From: an uncultured Gemmatimonadota bacterium
Lineage (GTDB): Bacteria > Gemmatimonadota > Gemmatimonadetes > Gemmatimonadales > Gemmatimonadaceae
Assembly: GCA_903882745.1 (NCBI GenBank)
Contig: CAIRYG010000014.1
Span: 62,001 to 126,000 of the forward strand
DNA: 64,000 bases
Direction: 5' to 3'
Part shown: positions 27,308-40,190 of the stretch, piece by piece
Numbering within the stretch: position 1 is the stretch's first letter
Layout: each line of letters opens with the position of its first letter
Translations under genes and position numbers: made by a program
Notes under the pieces: model-generated
What the model was told of the DNA's origin: nothing
The model's database searches: none
Seen by the model: only the letters and a program-made list of their open reading frames with translations

Positions 27308-30300
27308 TTAGGGTTGCGCGTTCAGATGGAAGGTGGCGACGGTGCCGTTGAATGCAGCGGTGATTTGGCACTGTCCGGCTGCGTAATAGATAAAGGCGGG
27401 GCTCCCGCCCATCTTGTTGAGGGTCGCGCTGCCGCTGGCATCAGTCATTACCGTCGACTGCGATGCTCCGGCGGGCTCGATCTGACAGGCCATTGCTGCA
27501 GGCTTGGTACCGACCGCCCACACAATCGGCGCATTGACGAGCGGATTGCCATTCGCGTCAATCAGCTTGACGACGAGCGGAGAAAACAGCGCGGTGGGAA
27601 TCCCCGAATTCGACCAGGGGGAATCGGTAATCGTCTTTGGCGAGGCCGTTTGATTGTCCCCGCTCACCATCAACATCTTCGGTGGTACGGAGTTGAGATG
27701 GAAGGTGACGCTGGCGGCGCCGGAGGTGGCGATGATTTGGCACTGTCCGTCGGCGTAGTAAATGCGCGCCGAGTAGGAGCCGGTGGTGTTCGACATCTTG
27801 CCAAGGGTCGCCGTGCCGTTGTCGTCGGTGACGATCGTGCTCTGCGCGTCACCACCAGGCTCAAACTGACAGGCCATAGCCCCCGGCTTGGTGCCGAGGC
27901 TGAAGATTACCGGAGTCTTGGCCAGCGGCTTCCCCGTCCAGTCGCGCAGGACAACGGTGAGCGGCGTGTAGAAGGCCTCGCCGCCCTGAATGTTGGTGCC
28001 CATGCGCGAGGCGTTCTGATTGTCACCGCTCACAATCGCGAGGGTGGGTGGGCCTGGCACGGACGACCTGAGGTGGAAGGTCACGGGTGCTGCGGACCCT
28101 GACGTTGCCACGATTTCGCAGTCGCCGTCCGCGTAGTAGATGCGCGCGGAGTTTCCGCTCATTTTGTTCATCGTGGCGATGCCTGAGGCATCGGCGTACG
28201 TGAACCCGGGGTTGATGCCGGAGGGCTCGAACTGGCAGGCCATCGCGGCGGGCTTGTTGCCCAGCTTCCAGGTGATGAGTGCGCCCGGGATCGGCTTACC
28301 AGCCGGATCGTTCGCACGGACCACCAGCGGCGCATAGTACGCCTCGCCGCCCTGAATGTTTGTACCCGAGCGCGTGGAGACTTGATTGTCACCGCTCATG
28401 AGCGACAGCGATGCCGCGGTCTGACCGGTCGGTCCAGAAGCACCCGCGACATTCAAGTGGAACGTGGCGGTCACCGGACCCGCCGAGACAATCACTTGGC
28501 ATTCGCCATCGGCGTAGTACGCGAAGACTGGGGCTGGTGCACCCGTCGGCGCCGTTAGCGTTGCAATACCGTTGGCATCGGCAGTCACGGTCCCGTTCGG
28601 AATGGCCATCTGACAGGCCATGGCATTGGGTTTAGCGCCGATGGAGAAAATCACCACCGCGCCCGGAATCGGCTTGCCATTCGCATCCTTTGCCACGACG
28701 GCGAGCGGAGCGAAAAGCGCTGCCGGAATCCCGGCGCCCGGCAAGAGTTGATTGCGCGCGACCGTTTGGTTGTCGCCGGACACGATGCTCAACGCACTCG
28801 GCGCGGCTGGCGGACCCGCTGTGGTGGCCCCGGCAATCGCGTTGAGGTTGAACGGTGCCGAGCGGTTGTAGGCGGTGGCGGTCGCGATGATCTGGCACTG
28901 GCCTTCGGCGCCCGAGACAATCGCGGATACGTTGCTGCCCTTGCCGAGCTGTGACCGCCCATTCACATCGGTGATGTCTGTGAAATCTGTGCCCATGTTG
29001 GGGCCGAGCACGCACGTCATGTTAGCCGGATGCGCACCGACCTTCCACAAGATTGGCGTACCCGGGATGGGCTTGCTGCTGAAGTCGCGAATTTCGATTT
29101 CCATCGGGGCAAACGTGGCGCTTTGGGCACCGTTGACCATCTGCGACTGCGCGACGGTCTGATTGAACCCCATGTTGAGCAACAGCATGACCGTGGGTGT
29201 GGTGCTCGTAGTGCCACCGGTCGTGGTGCCGCCGGTCGTGGTGCCGCCGGTCGTGGTGCCGCCGGTCGTGGTGCCACCGGTGTTGGTGCCGGTGGTGGTG
29301 GCAGCGGTGGTGGCGTTCAGGCGGAAGGTTACCTGCGGGGCACCGTTCGCCATGGCGAAGATCTGACAGTCCCCGTCCTGTCCGGCGATACCGGCGGACA
29401 TCCCGTTCAGTTTCGCCAGGACGGCACTGCCGGACGCATCGGTCACACCGGAGACGGACCCGCTGTTGCTGGGGTCAATGGTGCATGTCATAGCGGCCGG
29501 ATGCGGTCCGACCGTCCAGGTTACCGGGATGCCACCAAGCGCCTTGCCGTTGGCGTCTTTCGCAAAGACCACGAGTGGCGCAAAGACGGCCACCAACTGG
29601 CCGTTGACGGTCTGGTTACGAGCGGCGCTCTGTCCGTCGCCGCTCACGGGGCTGAGCCCGGCGACGATCGGCGCGTTGCCGGTGGTCGAACCACCGGTCG
29701 TGCCACCGGTCGTGCCACCGGTCGTGCCGCCGGTCGTGCCACCGGTCGTGCTACCCGTCGTGCCGCCGGTCGTGCCGCCGGTCGTGCCGCCGGTCGTGCC
29801 GCCGGTCGTGCCGCCGGTCGTGCCGCCGGTCGTGCCGCCGGTCGTGCCGCCGGTCGTGCCGCTCGCGGCTGTCGCTGCGACCATTGGGGTGGCCGTCAGG
29901 CGGAACGCCGCGGTGGACGAACCATATTTTGCCGTGATCACGCACTGGCCAGCCGCGCCGAAAATCAGCGCCGAGCTTCCGTACACGTTGTTCGCCAGGG
30001 TTGACGCACCGGTGGCGTCCGTGATGACCGAGTAGACCGTTTTGCCTTGCCCGTCGAGAGTGCAGGTCATGCCCTGCGCTTTCGAGGTTACCGACCAAGA
30101 GACCGTCAATCCGCTGCCGAGCGCCTTTCCGTTTCCGTCCTTGAGCTGAACGGAGAGTGGCTTGTAGAGGGCGGTCGGGATGTTATTGCTCTGCTGTAGC
30201 AACGCCGTGGACTGGCCGTCACCACTCAGGATTGACAGCATTCCCGTGGCTGCGCCCGTATTGGCGGCAGCGGTCTGCCCAGCCACCGGGGCTGTGGCGG

Positions 30301-30721
30301 TGAGGTGGAATGTGACGTTGGCGGCGCCCTGCGCTTGAACATTCACCAAGCACAGCCCGTTGTCGCCGAAAATGGCAGCGCCGAGGGTTCCGGGCAGCTT
30401 GACCAGGCTCGCCGTTCCGGTCGCGTCCGTGGTAACTCGGCTATTCGTGACCGTATTCGGGTCAATAATGCAGGTCATCTTCGCCGGGTGCGTTCCCACA
30501 GTAAAGATCACCACCGAGTTCGCGACTGGCTGGCCGGTCGCGTTCTTGACCAGCACCGTGAGCGGCGCGAATGACGCGGTCGGCGTGCCGTTCGCCAGTG
30601 TGAGGCGCGGTTGCGTTTGGTTGTCGCCAGACACAATCGTGATGGTGTTCTGCGCGAGAGCGGTTACGCTCACGCAAAGCGTCGCGGCCAGCGTGACCAG
30701 CACAGCGTGAATTTTCTTCAC
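27308..30721 (-). CDS. Secreted protein with eight SGDNQ Ig-like repeats and Thr/Gly linkers
   Basis: The protein has 1137 residues when started at the GTG at 30721, which opens a signal peptide (KKIHAVLVTLAATLCVSVTALAQ region) with AGGA upstream. A longer frame starts with TTG at 30781 and lacks signal features. The mature protein is eight Ig-like repeats of about 110-125 residues. Each typically begins SGDNQT (SGDGQS in two; diverged to NMGFNQT in one), continues FAPLVVxxKDANGKP, and has a cysteine in AMxCQ and a second in ADGQCQI, with TFHLNA at the end. Two linkers of Thr and Gly separate repeats 2/3 and 3/4 and are encoded by 12-bp and 15-bp tandem arrays. It has no anchor, no enzyme domain and no name. 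Probably extracellular; adhesion or binding is a guess. Confidence 0.85.
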   Translation of the reverse strand: MKKIHAVLVTLAATLCVSVTALAQNTITIVSGDNQTQPRLTLANGTPTASFAPLTVLVKNATGQPVANSVVIFTVGTHPAKMTCIIDPNTVTNSRVTTDATGTASLVKLPGTLGAAIFGDNGLCLVNVQAQGAANVTFHLTATAPVAGQTAAANTGAATGMLSILSGDGQSTALLQQSNNIPTALYKPLSVQLKDGNGKALGSGLTVSWSVTSKAQGMTCTLDGQGKTVYSVITDATGASTLANNVYGSSALIFGAAGQCVITAKYGSSTAAFRLTATPMVAATAASGTTGGTTGGTTGGTTGGTTGGTTGGTTGGTTGGTTGSTTGGTTGGTTGGTTGGTTGGSTTGNAPIVAGLSPVSGDGQSAARNQTVNGQLVAVFAPLVVFAKDANGKALGGIPVTWTVGPHPAAMTCTIDPSNSGSVSGVTDASGSAVLAKLNGMSAGIAGQDGDCQIFAMANGAPQVTFRLNATTAATTTGTNTGGTTTGGTTTGGTTTGGTTTGGTTSTTPTVMLLLNMGFNQTVAQSQMVNGAQSATFAPMEIEIRDFSSKPIPGTPILWKVGAHPANMTCVLGPNMGTDFTDITDVNGRSQLGKGSNVSAIVSGAEGQCQIIATATAYNRSAPFNLNAIAGATTAGPPAAPSALSIVSGDNQTVARNQLLPGAGIPAALFAPLAVVAKDANGKPIPGAVVIFSIGAKPNAMACQMAIPNGTVTADANGIATLTAPTGAPAPVFAYYADGECQVIVSAGPVTATFHLNVAGASGPTGQTAASLSLMSGDNQVSTRSGTNIQGGEAYYAPLVVRANDPAGKPIPGALITWKLGNKPAAMACQFEPSGINPGFTYADASGIATMNKMSGNSARIYYADGDCEIVATSGSAAPVTFHLRSSVPGPPTLAIVSGDNQNASRMGTNIQGGEAFYTPLTVVLRDWTGKPLAKTPVIFSLGTKPGAMACQFEPGGDAQSTIVTDDNGTATLGKMSNTTGSYSARIYYADGQCQIIATSGAASVTFHLNSVPPKMLMVSGDNQTASPKTITDSPWSNSGIPTALFSPLVVKLIDANGNPLVNAPIVWAVGTKPAAMACQIEPAGASQSTVMTDASGSATLNKMGGSPAFIYYAAGQCQITAAFNGTVATFHLNAQP
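29221..29280 (-). repeat. 15-bp tandem repeat, four copies
   Basis: Unit TCGTGGTGCCGCCGG on the plus strand, copies almost exact, with degenerate copies at both edges. It encodes TTTGG-type linker residues between repeats 3 and 4. Changes in copy number stay in frame. Confidence 0.9.
29691..29860 (-). repeat. 12-bp minisatellite, about 14 copies
   Basis: Unit CCGCCGGTCGTG (plus strand), mostly exact with a few CCACCGG variants and one altered copy near 29750. It encodes the TTGG linker between repeats 2 and 3. Copy-number change alters linker length without a frameshift. Confidence 0.92.
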
Positions 30722-30902
30722 GACGTAGTCCTGAAAAGGGTGAAGACCAACGGGACCAATGGAGCGTTGCTGCCACGGCAAACGTAGCGGTGGTGCTTGT
30801 GGAGCATTACCAAGGAACGACTTCGGGCTGTCACAAAACTACTCCAGCTGAACACCAAGCGTATCGGCTGAACGTGCGGTGTTCGAGACGGTTACTCCGG
30901 GC

Positions 30903-31709
30903 CTATTTGGTCGTGGCGTTGAGATGGAACGTGACCGTCGAGGTCCCCAGGGTGGCCAGGATCTGGCACTGGCCGTCGGCGTAGTAGATGCGGGCAGAGT
31001 ACGCGCCGGCGGCGTTGGACATCTTCCGAAGCGTGGCGAGGCCGGCGGCATCAGAGATCGCGGTGCTGGAGGCGTCGCCGCTGGGATCGAACTGGCAGGC
31101 CATGGCCGCCGGCTTGACGCCCTGCGAGAAGACAACAGGCACACCGGCAAGGGGCTTGCCGGCGGCATCCGTTACGAGAACGGAAAGGGGGGCGAAGATC
31201 GCTTCTCCCCCGACGCTGTTCGTGCCCAGGCGCGTGGCGGTTTGATTGTCACCGCTGGCGATGGTTATTGAGGGGGCGGCGGCGTTGAGATGGAAGGTGA
31301 CCGTCGAGGTCCCGAGGGTGGCCACGATCTGGCACTGGCCGTCGGCGTAGTAGATGCGGGCAGAGTACGCGCCGGCGGCGTTGGACATCTTCCGAAGCGT
31401 GGCGAGGCCGGTGGCATCAGAGATCGCGGTGCTGGAGGCGTCGCCGCTCGGATCAAACTGGCAGGCCATGGCCGCCGGCTTGACGCCCTGCGAGAAGACC
31501 ACAGGCACACCGGCAAGGGGCTTGCCGGTGGCATCCTTTACGAGAACGGAAAGGGGGGCGTAGAGCGCTTCACCCCCCTGGCTGTTTGTGCCCACTCGCG
31601 TGGCGGTCTGGTTATCGCCGCTCGCGAGGGATAGGCTACCTTGGGCTCCGGCCGTAGTTGCGAGGACGGCGCAAACACTCCAAACTAATGTAGATTCGAA
31701 GCGGAACAT
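30903..31709 (-). CDS. Secreted protein of two near-identical SGDNQ Ig-like repeats
   Basis: The protein has 268 residues. The signal peptide is residues 1-22 (LVWSVCAVLATTAGAQ). Two repeats of 122 residues follow, differing at only about ten positions, each with SGDNQTATR, APLSVLV, AMACQFDPSGD, IYYADGQCQI and TFHLNA. They belong to the same domain family as the repeats of the 1137-residue protein downstream and most resemble its repeats 6 and 7 (GTNxxGGEA). The gene lies 181 bases upstream of that gene on the same strand; the gap has no gene and only a weak hairpin. The function is unknown; each repeat could hold one disulfide. Confidence 0.85.
   Translation of the reverse strand: MFRFESTLVWSVCAVLATTAGAQGSLSLASGDNQTATRVGTNSQGGEALYAPLSVLVKDATGKPLAGVPVVFSQGVKPAAMACQFDPSGDASSTAISDATGLATLRKMSNAAGAYSARIYYADGQCQIVATLGTSTVTFHLNAAAPSITIASGDNQTATRLGTNSVGGEAIFAPLSVLVTDAAGKPLAGVPVVFSQGVKPAAMACQFDPSGDASSTAISDAAGLATLRKMSNAAGAYSARIYYADGQCQILATLGTSTVTFHLNATTK
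30915..31646 (-). repeat. Direct repeat, two 366-bp copies
   Basis: Copy one begins near 30915 and copy two near 31281. Long stretches are identical at the DNA level, including silent positions, which points to recent duplication or gene conversion. Confidence 0.88.
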
Positions 31710-33160: not shown

Positions 33161-33904
33161 TCAGCTCCCGGGCTCGTCGGACGCGAAGTAGTCGAGCACC
33201 ATCTGCTTCCCCTGCGCCCGGGTGTACACGTCCCCTGCGCGCGAGTCGATGACTCCGGCAATCACGGCCGCAACCTCATCCACCGTCTGCGAGTTCGGGA
33301 AGGTGCGCGAGTCGGGACCGCCGTGCAGGGCGTTGTTTCCGAAATCGGTCTGCACCACACCGGGCGAGACCAACGAGAACTGGATGCCGGGGTGCGTGGC
33401 GCGCACCTCGGTTCGGAAGTTCGCCGTCAGCGAGTTCACCATGTGCTTCGCCGCGCTGTACGCGGCGCGCATGGGCGCCATGGGCATCCGGCCGAGCATT
33501 GACGAGATGTTGATCACCTGCCCACTCCCACGCTCCTGGAAATGCGGGAGGACTTCCTGCATGCCATACAGGACGCTCTTCACGTTGATGCGGACCATGT
33601 CGTCGATGTCCGCGTCGGTGATAGCCGTGGGCATCCGGGTGATCCCGCGCCCCGCGTTGTTCACCCACACGTCGATGTGGCCAAAGCGCTCGATCGCCGA
33701 GCGCACCACGCGCTGGACGTCGTCACGCACCGTGACATCAGCCACGACTGGCAGCGCGTGCGGGCCGCAGGCGACCGCGACGCGGTGCAACTCCGCTTCG
33801 CGCCGCGCGGCGAGCACCACGGAATCACCCCGCCGTGCGAGGAGCTCGGCGAGTGCTGCACCGATGCCGGAGCTTGCGCCGGTAATAACAATGACTTTGG
33901 ACAT
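33161..33904 (-). CDS. Short-chain dehydrogenase/reductase
   Basis: The protein has 247 residues from the ATG at 33904, which starts the Rossmann strand directly (VIVITGASSGIG, TGxxxGxG). Other classical SDR marks: NNAGRG (about residue 86), a Ser in INISSMLGRMP, and the catalytic YSAAKHMV (YxxxK). The C-terminal ISLVSPGVVQTDF-type stretch is the usual PG motif. The substrate is not predictable. It is on the same strand as the flavin cassette, 56 bases after its last gene, so it may be its last member or a separate unit. Confidence 0.9.
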   Translation of the reverse strand: MSKVIVITGASSGIGAALAELLARRGDSVVLAARREAELHRVAVACGPHALPVVADVTVRDDVQRVVRSAIERFGHIDVWVNNAGRGITRMPTAITDADIDDMVRINVKSVLYGMQEVLPHFQERGSGQVINISSMLGRMPMAPMRAAYSAAKHMVNSLTANFRTEVRATHPGIQFSLVSPGVVQTDFGNNALHGGPDSRTFPNSQTVDEVAAVIAGVIDSRAGDVYTRAQGKQMVLDYFASDEPGS

Positions 33905-33960
33905 AGTTCGAAGAGTGCGAGCGGTGTGAGGTGACTGTATGGAAATGAGCGTGTTGCGCG

Positions 33961-34785
33961 CTACGCCGCAATCGGCTCGCGCGCGTTGCCACGGCGTGAC
34001 TTTCTCCATCCTTCCCAGACGTTTGCCACCAGCAGGCCCGCGAGCAGGAAGTAGGCGGCGCCGACCAACTCGAACACAGCGAAACTCACGACGGCGACAA
34101 TTACGCCATAGATGAGCTGGTCGCGATGCTTTGGCGGCGAGGTTGGGGGGTCTGTCACCATAAAGAACGCAAAGAAGAGTGCGGCATGGAGGTCGGGCTC
34201 CCGATACAACTCCGCAACGTGCCCAGGGTCGCCGAAAAAGGCGAAGGCGGTGGCCAGCGCGTAGTACGAGCCAAGGAAGGCGAGCACGAGCGGTCCTTTA
34301 TTCATACGGATCGTGATAAAGACGCCGGTCGCTACGAGTGCGCTAATCCAGAGGATCGACATCTCGGGGAGCGCGCCCCACCAACTCTGCCCGGTGTCGA
34401 AGACGTAGAACGTCGCCACGAGGGCAAGCGCCGCGGGATTGAACACGTTGGCTTTCCGCGCCCGAACGAGGTACTTACTCACGACACCTACGACCGCGGT
34501 GATTGCTGCGACATGCCACGGTTCGTGCGGACTCAAAATGAGAGCGACGATCCATCCGGTGAGCATCGCCCCGTCTGGAAACACCCACCGTCCCCCGCGC
34601 CACCGGAGCAAGGGCGCGTCCACGAGCATCGCGGCGAACACGGCACCGAGCAGCGGCGGAGCGACCAGTCGCCAGCCTTCGTGCGGTGCAGCGATCACCG
34701 TGAGAATCGCTAAGACAATGGTGAACAGCCCCTTTGGCGTGCGAAGATACCGCTGGATGGCGCTGGATTTATGCGGACGTGACAT
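33961..34785 (-). CDS. RnfD/NqrB-like membrane protein
   Basis: The protein has 274 residues from the ATG at 34785, shorter than RnfD (about 350). Eight or so membrane helices carry the family stretches KYLVRARKANVFNPAALAL and FFAFFMVTDPPTSPPKHRDQ, the latter a hallmark of RnfD/NqrB. I do not find the SGAT motif that carries covalent FMN in RnfD/NqrB, so this version may hold its flavin differently or not at all. It overlaps the apbE gene by 17 bases. In family members this protein passes electrons across the membrane; here it would connect to the FMN-binding protein encoded two genes upstream. Confidence 0.85.
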   Translation of the reverse strand: MSRPHKSSAIQRYLRTPKGLFTIVLAILTVIAAPHEGWRLVAPPLLGAVFAAMLVDAPLLRWRGGRWVFPDGAMLTGWIVALILSPHEPWHVAAITAVVGVVSKYLVRARKANVFNPAALALVATFYVFDTGQSWWGALPEMSILWISALVATGVFITIRMNKGPLVLAFLGSYYALATAFAFFGDPGHVAELYREPDLHAALFFAFFMVTDPPTSPPKHRDQLIYGVIVAVVSFAVFELVGAAYFLLAGLLVANVWEGWRKSRRGNAREPIAA

Positions 34786-35698
34786 CGGCGGTGTCGTAGT
34801 ATTGGCGCATCCCCGGCGTTTCGGTCCGCTGGAGATCTGGTGAAATAATGATGCCGTCAACGCGCTGGCGTTCCAGGAAGGCGATGCCGCGATCGGGCCC
34901 TAAGACAAAGGCAGCGGTCGCCAGCGCATCGGCGACCAGTGCACGCGGCGCAATCACGGTCACGCTTGCGACGCGGGAGGCCGAGATCCCGACGCGCGGA
35001 TCCATAATGTGGTGCCCGTCGCCGAGTGGTGATGGACGCTCGTAGTCGCCGCTGGTACACACCGCAGCGTTCGAGATGCGAAGCCGAGCCACGTGCGTGT
35101 CGAGGTCGCGCGGATGCCGCACGCCGACCGCCCAGGGTGCGTGGTGCATGTTGCGTCCGGCAAGGAAGAGGTCGCCGCCGGCGTCGATGGCGAAGTTGCC
35201 GATGTCGGTGAGTTCGGCTGCGGCAAGATCGATCGCCAGTCCTTTGGCCACCGATCCGAGATCGAGGACCAACGGGCGATGTAGCGTAATGGTGTGTTCG
35301 TCTTCATCGAGTTCGACGTCCCGCCATGACACGGTGTCGTCGACGGGCAGTCGCGACGGCGTGCGTTCGCCACTGCGCCAGGCAACGTCAAAGCCGCGCG
35401 CCTCCATGGTGGTGCCGACCGTTGGATCGAAGGCTCCGTCGCTTGCGCGCGCGACGGCAATCGCAAAGCGCGTGGCTTCAAACAGAATCTCGCTGGCGGC
35501 GAAGGGATGCCCCACGTGATTCACCAGCTGGCGGATTTCGCTGGAGGGGTCGAAGCGACTGCAGCACTCCTCGACTCGCGAGAACCAGTCGAGCGCACGC
35601 TGGGCCCGCACGGGACGATCCCCCGCGTCTTCCCCAGCGATTCGCACGGTGACCAAGGTTCCCATCGCCGTGGTGGTGCGTTCGAAGGCGGCGGTCAC
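34769..35698 (-). CDS. apbE: FAD:protein FMN transferase ApbE
   Basis: The protein has 309 residues. ApbE attaches FMN from FAD through a phosphoester to Thr/Ser in exported proteins. Motifs: TAMGTLVTVRI at the start, DGAFDPTVG (FAD/Mg binding), LDLGSVAKGLAIDLA, FAIDAGGDLFLAG, HHIMDPRVG and the ADALATAAFVLG region with the metal-binding Asp. No clear signal peptide or lipobox is present, unlike many periplasmic ApbE proteins, so its location is uncertain. It overlaps both neighbours by 4 and 17 bases; its likely target is the SGAT protein encoded just upstream. Confidence 0.93.
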   Translation of the reverse strand: MTAAFERTTTAMGTLVTVRIAGEDAGDRPVRAQRALDWFSRVEECCSRFDPSSEIRQLVNHVGHPFAASEILFEATRFAIAVARASDGAFDPTVGTTMEARGFDVAWRSGERTPSRLPVDDTVSWRDVELDEDEHTITLHRPLVLDLGSVAKGLAIDLAAAELTDIGNFAIDAGGDLFLAGRNMHHAPWAVGVRHPRDLDTHVARLRISNAAVCTSGDYERPSPLGDGHHIMDPRVGISASRVASVTVIAPRALVADALATAAFVLGPDRGIAFLERQRVDGIIISPDLQRTETPGMRQYYDTADVTSA

Positions 35699-36516
35699 CG
35701 CGATTTGTTGAGTGCTTCGACGACCGCGTAGTAGAACGCGTTGGTGCTCTGGGTGGCGCCCGACACGAAATCGACGTCAGCGCTCTGGCGCACCACCACC
35801 TGCTGTTGCAAGTGCGCAATCCACGAGCATGAGTAGCGCGTGAGGCACCGTGAAATCTGGGCCGAGACGATATGTCCGTCGGCGATGACCACCGTGGCTT
35901 CGATGTCGCCGTGCCGTGATGTGCCCCATCCCGTGTAGCTCCCGTCGTGCCACTGCGACCTTGGCCGCTCCGGCTCATGCGGTGCCGGCGCAGGCGCTGC
36001 CTTGGGTGCTGGCGGCGGCGGGGCAGAAGTCGGTGCGCTGGCCGGAGCCGCGGCGACAGGTGCCGGCGCGACCACTGGTGCGGCAACGATCGCCGGCGAG
36101 GGAGCGGAGGGCGAGTCGTTCGTGATGTTCGCGGCAGCGGGCTTGTTTGGTTCCGACGCGATGGCTGCCGCGGGGGCTGATGGCGCCGTTGGCGCGGCTG
36201 GCGCGGTTGCTAGTGCCGCAGGCGCGAGGCTCCCGGCCCCTGTGCCGGATGTCGGGGTTCGGCGAGGCGGGGCTGCCGCCACGGTCGTGGAAGCCGAGGG
36301 AGTGCTCGAGGGGCGCGCATGGGCGTCCGCCTCGTCCGAGAACTTATCGGCTGCGGCACGTGTCCGTTGGAAGCCCGCGCCATAGATGGTGAGCACGGCC
36401 GCAGATCCGATCGCCAGCAAGTTATTCGGGATCCGGGCCAAGCCCGCCTTCTCACGCGCGGGCGCTCCATCCCCGCCAGGCGGGGTTCCAATGGGCGGAC
36501 GCGGAGACGTGGGCAT
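35695..36516 (-). CDS. Exported FMN-binding-domain protein with long Ala/Pro linker
   Basis: The protein has 273 residues from the ATG at 36516; a TTG at 36564 would add 16 basic residues. One N-terminal membrane segment (NNLLAIGSAAVLTIYGAGF) is followed by a roughly 130-residue Ala/Pro/Thr linker (about 60-185) and a C-terminal FMN_bind domain of about 85 residues (DGSYTGWGTSRHGDIEATVVI). The DFVSGATQST motif near the end carries the Thr that ApbE flavinylates in RnfG/NqrC. The linker could let the flavin domain reach across the periplasm. Its stop overlaps the apbE start by 4 bases. Confidence 0.87.
   Translation of the reverse strand: MPTSPRPPIGTPPGGDGAPAREKAGLARIPNNLLAIGSAAVLTIYGAGFQRTRAAADKFSDEADAHARPSSTPSASTTVAAAPPRRTPTSGTGAGSLAPAALATAPAAPTAPSAPAAAIASEPNKPAAANITNDSPSAPSPAIVAAPVVAPAPVAAAPASAPTSAPPPPAPKAAPAPAPHEPERPRSQWHDGSYTGWGTSRHGDIEATVVIADGHIVSAQISRCLTRYSCSWIAHLQQQVVVRQSADVDFVSGATQSTNAFYYAVVEALNKSR

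Positions 36517-38615: not shown

Positions 38616-40190
<1,575 letters not shown>

Follow-up and report, generated by a model that had tools for sequence, protein, structure and literature searches.

Three overlapping genes on the minus strand (33961-36516) form a compact cassette in the window, the 64,000-nucleotide stretch of Gemmatimonadota DNA that was analyzed as a whole. They encode an FMN-binding protein (F), an ApbE-type FMN transferase (A) and an RnfD/NqrB-like membrane protein (R), in that order, with overlaps of 4 bases between F and A and 17 bases between A and R. The gene set agrees with the original prediction, which was made from the sequence alone. Each product exceeds the curated Pfam cut-off of its family: F matches PF04205 with 25.6 bits (cut-off 22), A matches PF02424 with 203 bits (cut-off 25.6) and R matches PF03116 with 62.1 bits (cut-off 27.7). 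For R, the ATG at 34785 is the preferred start, and an alternative ORF of 299 aa begins further inside A. The features are as follows, with the short motifs identified by sequence reading.

35695..36516, minus strand: F, FMN-binding protein with an N-terminal membrane anchor, an Ala/Pro-rich linker and one FMN_bind domain (ATG at 36516, 273 aa; PF04205 over cut-off)
36370..36426, minus strand: membrane anchor of F (NNLLAIGSAAVLTIYGAGF), a motif conserved among relatives
35827..35847, minus strand: cysteine pair of F, C-x5-C (CLTRYSC), conserved in F domains
35752..35763, minus strand: SGAT of F, the predicted FMN attachment site (79 of 86 F domains have the canonical form)
34769..35698, minus strand: A, FMN transferase of the ApbE type, with no signal peptide (309 aa; PF02424, E 8e-60)
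33961..34785, minus strand: R, RnfD/NqrB-like membrane protein without the covalent-flavin loop and without an NAD domain (274 aa; PF03116 over cut-off)
34135..34167, minus strand: FFMVTDPPTSP motif of R (TDPPT is common among R proteins)

The host assembly comprises 3.06 Mb in 14 contigs (completeness 100%, contamination 1.33). Genome-wide profile searches recover one PF03116 protein (R), one PF04205 protein (F) and two PF02424 proteins. The second ApbE is encoded on contig 3 (43704-44492, L043), where it is fused to DUF2271 and adjoins a PepSY_TM protein and a TonB-dependent receptor, an arrangement that resembles published PepSY flavinylation clusters. The N-terminal sequence of this second ApbE resembles a signal peptide.

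Elsewhere in the window, two minus-strand genes (27308-30781 and 30903-31709) encode large repeat proteins. The product of 30903-31709 matches the bacterial Ig-like family Big_1, and that of 27308-30781 has, by reading, similar repeats and long Gly-Thr stretches. A tyrosine phenol-lyase is encoded at 38616-40190 (NCBIfam equivalog model, 758 bits, cut-off 720.7).

Conservation of the gene trio

The F-A-R trio is a conserved unit, not a chance arrangement. Besides the host's own genome, R occurs at 62-97% identity in 12 of 60 related genomes, and 6 more have distant matches only. All 12 close loci keep the F-A-R order, and their flanks vary. A scan with an R profile, using one genome per species, retrieved 105 relatives, and the top 80 were taken forward; 77 loci were of sufficient length, and dereplication at 85% identity left 63. 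Among these 63 loci, drawn from the best 80 of the 105 relatives, F is encoded upstream on the same strand in 61, A in 57 and both in 56. F is absent from L046 and L119, and A from L081, L110, L116, L119, L120 and L121, with L119 and L121 situated at or near contig ends. The loci derive mostly from Gemmatimonadota, Acidobacteriota, Verrucomicrobiota (Opitutae) and Chloroflexota. Bins labeled as Kuenenia (L070), Bordetella (L083), Bifidobacterium (L120) and Gammaproteobacteria (L112) look mislabeled and are not counted as additional phyla. Automated gene calling overlooked or split some genes, among them F in L032 and R on three contigs, and all counts therefore rest on stop-to-stop ORFs and profiles.

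The same pattern appears when the search starts from F. Of the phylum's 395 genomes, 40 contain matches to an F-domain profile, 41 in all and each with E ≤ 2.2e-36 at a threshold of 1e-8. Twelve of the matches belong to loci already covered above; at the other 29 A and the cysteine pair of F are both present in 29 of 29, and R in 28 of 29. The single locus without R lies on a contig that breaks off within A. In L199 and L200 a contig end truncates R, and in L202 R is split across two reading frames. No F-R fusion occurs among the ORFs of the examined loci.

The original prediction suggested looking for a conserved neighbor that supplies or takes electrons, and named a fourth gene that would give a known complex as the finding that would speak against it. 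Within four genes on either side, no further family recurs in more than 7 of the 63 loci (neighbor clusters linked at E 1e-6, both strands allowed), and a conserved fourth gene was rejected on this ground. By reading only, the commonest neighbor clusters are ABC-permease-like, beta-lactamase-like and glycosidase/sortilin-like. The short-chain dehydrogenase at 33161-34009 was considered as a partner and rejected: it adjoins R only in the window and in the 97% identical L025, and not in the other 11 loci.

The membrane protein and its flavin partner

The structure model of R (mean pLDDT 93.8) has Azotobacter RnfD as its top PDB match (8rbq_D, E 2.1e-8, TM-score 0.71), followed by NqrB structures with TM-scores of 0.58-0.63. 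The NCBIfam rnfD and nqrB models match R far below their cut-offs (48.4 bits for rnfD, where 207 are required), which makes R kin to RnfD and NqrB and not a standard form of either. Positions 31-130 and 138-234 of the R profile align to residues 41-142 and 216-312 of RnfD 8ahx_D, leaving 7 profile positions to cover the 73 intervening residues of the chain. The gap indicates that a loop of ~70 residues is missing in R. In RnfD, this region carries the covalent FMN.

As anticipated, the window's R contains FFMVTDPPTSP and no SGAT, or any other form of [ST]GA[ST]. The latter pattern is absent in 91 of 92 R proteins, the single match being FTGASFLG in L121. FNPAA is present in 89 of 89 R proteins and TDPPT in 81 of 89, and R with its tail spans ≤ 339 residues in 88 of 88. 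A regular expression for an N-terminal R motif fits only 44 of 89, because ORFs were cut at the profile start, and is not counted as support.

The flavin domain of F was modeled with a pLDDT of 88.1, and its best PDB fold matches are the single FMN_bind domains 8p2a (TM-score 0.75) and 8p2b. The linker between anchor and flavin domain, predicted at about 130 residues, is 137 residues long (32% Ala, 22% Pro). Such linkers are common to the relatives, with a median of 136.5 residues and a range of 26-197 in the 66 of 86 F proteins that have a locatable anchor motif. As the original prediction proposed, the linker may serve to reach a distant partner. F is predicted to carry covalent FMN at SGAT. 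The canonical [ST]G[ACS][ST] motif is found in all but 7 of the 86 F domains. [ST]RAT replaces [ST]GAT in six F domains (L083, L091, L105, L106, L112 and L123), and AGAT occupies the FMN site of the L081 protein; in all of these the rest of the domain is intact.

Electron source, topology and the cysteine pair

What might the trio do? We consider that it probably constitutes a minimal extracytoplasmic electron route, namely a two-subunit transmembrane flavin conduit encoded together with its maturation enzyme. R would be the membrane part, with an RnfD/NqrB fold that lost the loop bearing covalent FMN in RnfD but kept FNPAA and TDPPT, probably around a non-covalent flavin. F would be anchored beside R by its conserved helix. 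Its single FMN, attached at SGAT by A, would be tethered outside the membrane through a long flexible linker. Electrons would pass between the membrane and the FMN of F via R. The partner on the outside would presumably be variable or diffusible.

The rest of the Rnf or Nqr machinery, which the original prediction held to be lacking, was sought genome-wide through PF02508, the family of RnfA, RnfE, NqrD and NqrE. It has no match in the host genome (4 of 14 control genomes are positive), and there is no second RnfD or FMN_bind protein. On the PF02508 result, a full Rnf or Nqr elsewhere in the genome that lacks its own D and G genes, the other finding named in advance as telling against the prediction, was rejected. 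Among 40 carrier genomes, PF02508 over cut-off is absent in 34, and 6 have Rnf/Nqr genes elsewhere.

The NAD-binding module is missing as well. PF00175, the FNR/NqrF-type NAD-binding family, has no match in the host genome (10 of 14 control genomes are positive), and is absent in 11 of 11 further Gemmatimonadota carriers and in 13 of 17 additional ones, with 4 of the 17 positive. Of 4 genus mates that lack the cassette, 1 has a PF00175 protein, and so do 30 of 40 carriers of several phyla somewhere in their genomes. These carrier sets overlap, with some genomes included twice, and the counts are not to be summed. The absences indicate that the cassette needs no PF00175 protein in Gemmatimonadota. 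NqrB works with quinone, which makes quinol a natural candidate for the donor. Since the cassette lacks an NAD(P)H module and the host genome contains no member of that family, the quinol pool would be the likeliest partner on the membrane side and quinol the likeliest electron donor.

An alternative is that the cassette is an NAD(P)H-driven system of the NQR/RNF-like type, with a separate NAD(P)H reductase docking under R. In the published relatives PF00175 is fused to R and the F-A-R order is the same, and the PF00175 proteins in 30 of the 40 carriers and in 4 of the 17 make a reductase acting in trans possible there. A flavin reductase that uses NAD(P)H but is unrelated to PF00175 may also play this role. 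However, the host genome and most of the further Gemmatimonadota carriers lack PF00175 altogether, and no PF00175 gene is conserved beside the cassette. We judge this arrangement unlikely.

The preferred conduit reading places the flavin of F outside the membrane, and the charges that flank the anchor favor this. The N-terminal side of the anchor is the more positive in 46 of 66 proteins, equal in 14 and less positive in 6. A twin-arginine pair (RR) occurs in just 6 of 66 anchors, which gives no indication that the F domain is exported folded and pre-loaded with flavin; twin-arginine export of F was dropped.

The transferase, in contrast, should remain cytoplasmic. No signal peptide is recognizable in A in 75 of 75 measured loci (N-termini by reading; 6 of 81 were not measurable). 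In the window, 11 residues precede the MGT of the A domain. The start lies ≤ 18 residues before MGT or MDT in 67 of the 75, and the other 8 have 24-48 residues there, by eye without a clear hydrophobic core. Short A starts also occur in 6 of 6 clusters read in which R is fused to an NAD domain. A review describes most ApbE proteins as secreted, with cytosolic ones known for cytosolic fumarate reductase (PMC12052999). The lack of a signal peptide on A complicates an exported flavin domain of F, and the sites of FMN attachment and of FMN use seem to lie on opposite sides of the membrane. A programmed frameshift that fuses F to A, so that A is exported with F, was considered and dropped because the F-A offset varies among loci. 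Both here and in the NAD-fused clusters, flavin attachment poses a sharp question: the transferase lacks a signal peptide, yet the flavin domain it serves apparently lies outside.

In another reading, the FMN domain of F would be cytoplasmic, held by an N-out anchor, loaded by cytoplasmic A and acting as cytoplasmic donor to or acceptor from R. The uniform lack of a signal peptide on A, here and in the six NAD-fused clusters, fits such an orientation, as do the positive residues that also follow the anchor in many Gemmatimonadota F proteins. The balance of anchor charges (46 against 6 of 66) nevertheless favors N-in, and the long Ala/Pro linkers and the cysteine pair suit an outside location. 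Moreover, the flavin domains of the homologs NqrC and RnfG lie outside. We regard a cytoplasmic F domain as quite improbable.

The cysteine pair of F may hint at where electrons go from the proposed conduit. All 86 F domains have the first Cys, and 80 of the 86 have the second. The [C]RHG turn is readable in 74 distinct domains, and a Cys occupies it in 5 of the 6 that lack the second Cys vs 7 of the 68 that have it (Fisher p 2.7e-4, uncorrected for kinship). All five are from Opitutae and fall in two groups in the tree. In the model, two of the three Cys sites close strands 1 and 3, and the third opens a helix. A real disulfide with a moved partner would allow such a swap, and the pair fits a disulfide of this kind, either structural or redox-active. 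In the redox-active case, electrons might run from quinol through R to the FMN of F, on to its cysteine pair and then to disulfides or other partners outside, a DsbD-like task done by flavins. We put forward this extension as a speculative and rather doubtful one, and a purely structural disulfide explains the same cysteine facts.

That the trio is a functionless relict, the D and G subunits left over from a lost Rnf operon, is scarcely credible: the patchy distribution would suit it (R is lacking in 9 of 17 genus mates; 9 have R besides the host's own genome, minus incomplete bins), but across phyla R retains 46-71% identity to the version in the window, and 21 columns are invariant among 60 sequences, A keeps three of four tested motifs in 79 of 82 proteins (the regular expression for one ApbE motif, fitting only 63 of 82, is not counted as support), the gene order is kept, and R forms one clade apart from RnfD.

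Should the reading as a transmembrane flavin conduit hold, the cassette would rank as the smallest in the Rnf/Nqr line, with one membrane subunit and one flavin protein and without an iron-sulfur or NAD module. It would thus offer a direct test of what RnfD/NqrB alone does across the membrane. The occurrence of the same trio in several phyla without the other machine parts makes the electron source of the cassette a testable question.

Comparison with known systems

In related genomes, other PF03116 membrane proteins of about 290 aa are encoded beside UnbV-type genes (L037-L042); these proteins we take to be like the enediyne UnbU. Their neighbors are large FG-GAP/UnbV_ASPIC proteins (by Pfam, on L041 only). 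Unlike R, they have no F or A in the fetched stretches, and they form a separate clade.

The cassette shares with Na+-NQR the match of R to NqrB structures and a weak match of F to NqrC (4xhf_D, E 0.17), but the host genome lacks NqrD and NqrE and any PF00175 domain such as that of NqrF. With Rnf it shares the RnfD fold of R and, in F, the flavin domain type of RnfG. It differs in that the host genome lacks RnfA and RnfE, that R lacks both the loop corresponding to RnfD 142-216 and SGAT, and that R belongs to a clade apart from RnfD.

The defining trait of the NQR/RNF-like system is a flavinylation cluster whose membrane protein joins a PF03116 domain to PF00175 at the C-terminus, and electrons were proposed to flow in it one way only, starting from NAD(P)H and reaching an FMN domain on the outside (Meheust et al. 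2021, PMC8238504). By this definition, the published flavinylation survey would have excluded the cassette. The NQR/RNF-like membrane subunit is described as being without a flavinylation site, and the FMN of its partner may visit a non-covalent flavin site in that subunit (Huang et al. 2024, PMC11334425). The same report provides a precedent for a conduit made of F and an RnfD-like protein without SGAT (PMC11334425).

The parallels with this class are extensive. Both have a PF03116-type protein clustered with FMN_bind and ApbE proteins, an NqrB/RnfD-like membrane protein without SGAT, an anchored FMN_bind partner with SGAT or TGAT, and an A without a signal peptide. Any PF03116 match occurs in 25 of 151 Chloroflexota genomes, and NAD-fused clusters with the same F-A-R order were found in L155, L159, L162, L164 and L166 of this phylum, where R is about 450-530 residues long. 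Three NAD-fused R proteins were scanned with Pfam; PF00175 is over cut-off in 3 of 3 and PF03116 in 1 of 3. In contrast, the window's R stops at 274 aa and matches PF03116 alone, without a C-terminal PF00175, and the cysteine pair of F is absent in six NAD-fused examples. One member of the NAD-fused clade (L156, 4657-5688) has an R that stops at 343 residues, which may reflect truncation or a sequence error.

Our literature search found no paper on a PF03116-ApbE-FMN_bind cassette without an NAD domain, and such cassettes may sit unremarked in supplementary tables. Given its kinship with the published NQR/RNF-like class, the cassette is not wholly new in kind. In a tree of R (57 rows, quick search), the NAD-fused proteins form one clade (SH-aLRT 100) and the short cassettes another (40 rows, SH-aLRT 98). 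The cassettes with the cysteine pair form one clade inside the latter (37 rows, SH-aLRT 90), and three short Chloroflexota R proteins, whose F proteins lack these cysteines, are placed at its base. The clades indicate that the window's cassette is a sister form of the NAD-fused systems, rather than one strain's cassette that has recently shed its NAD domain.
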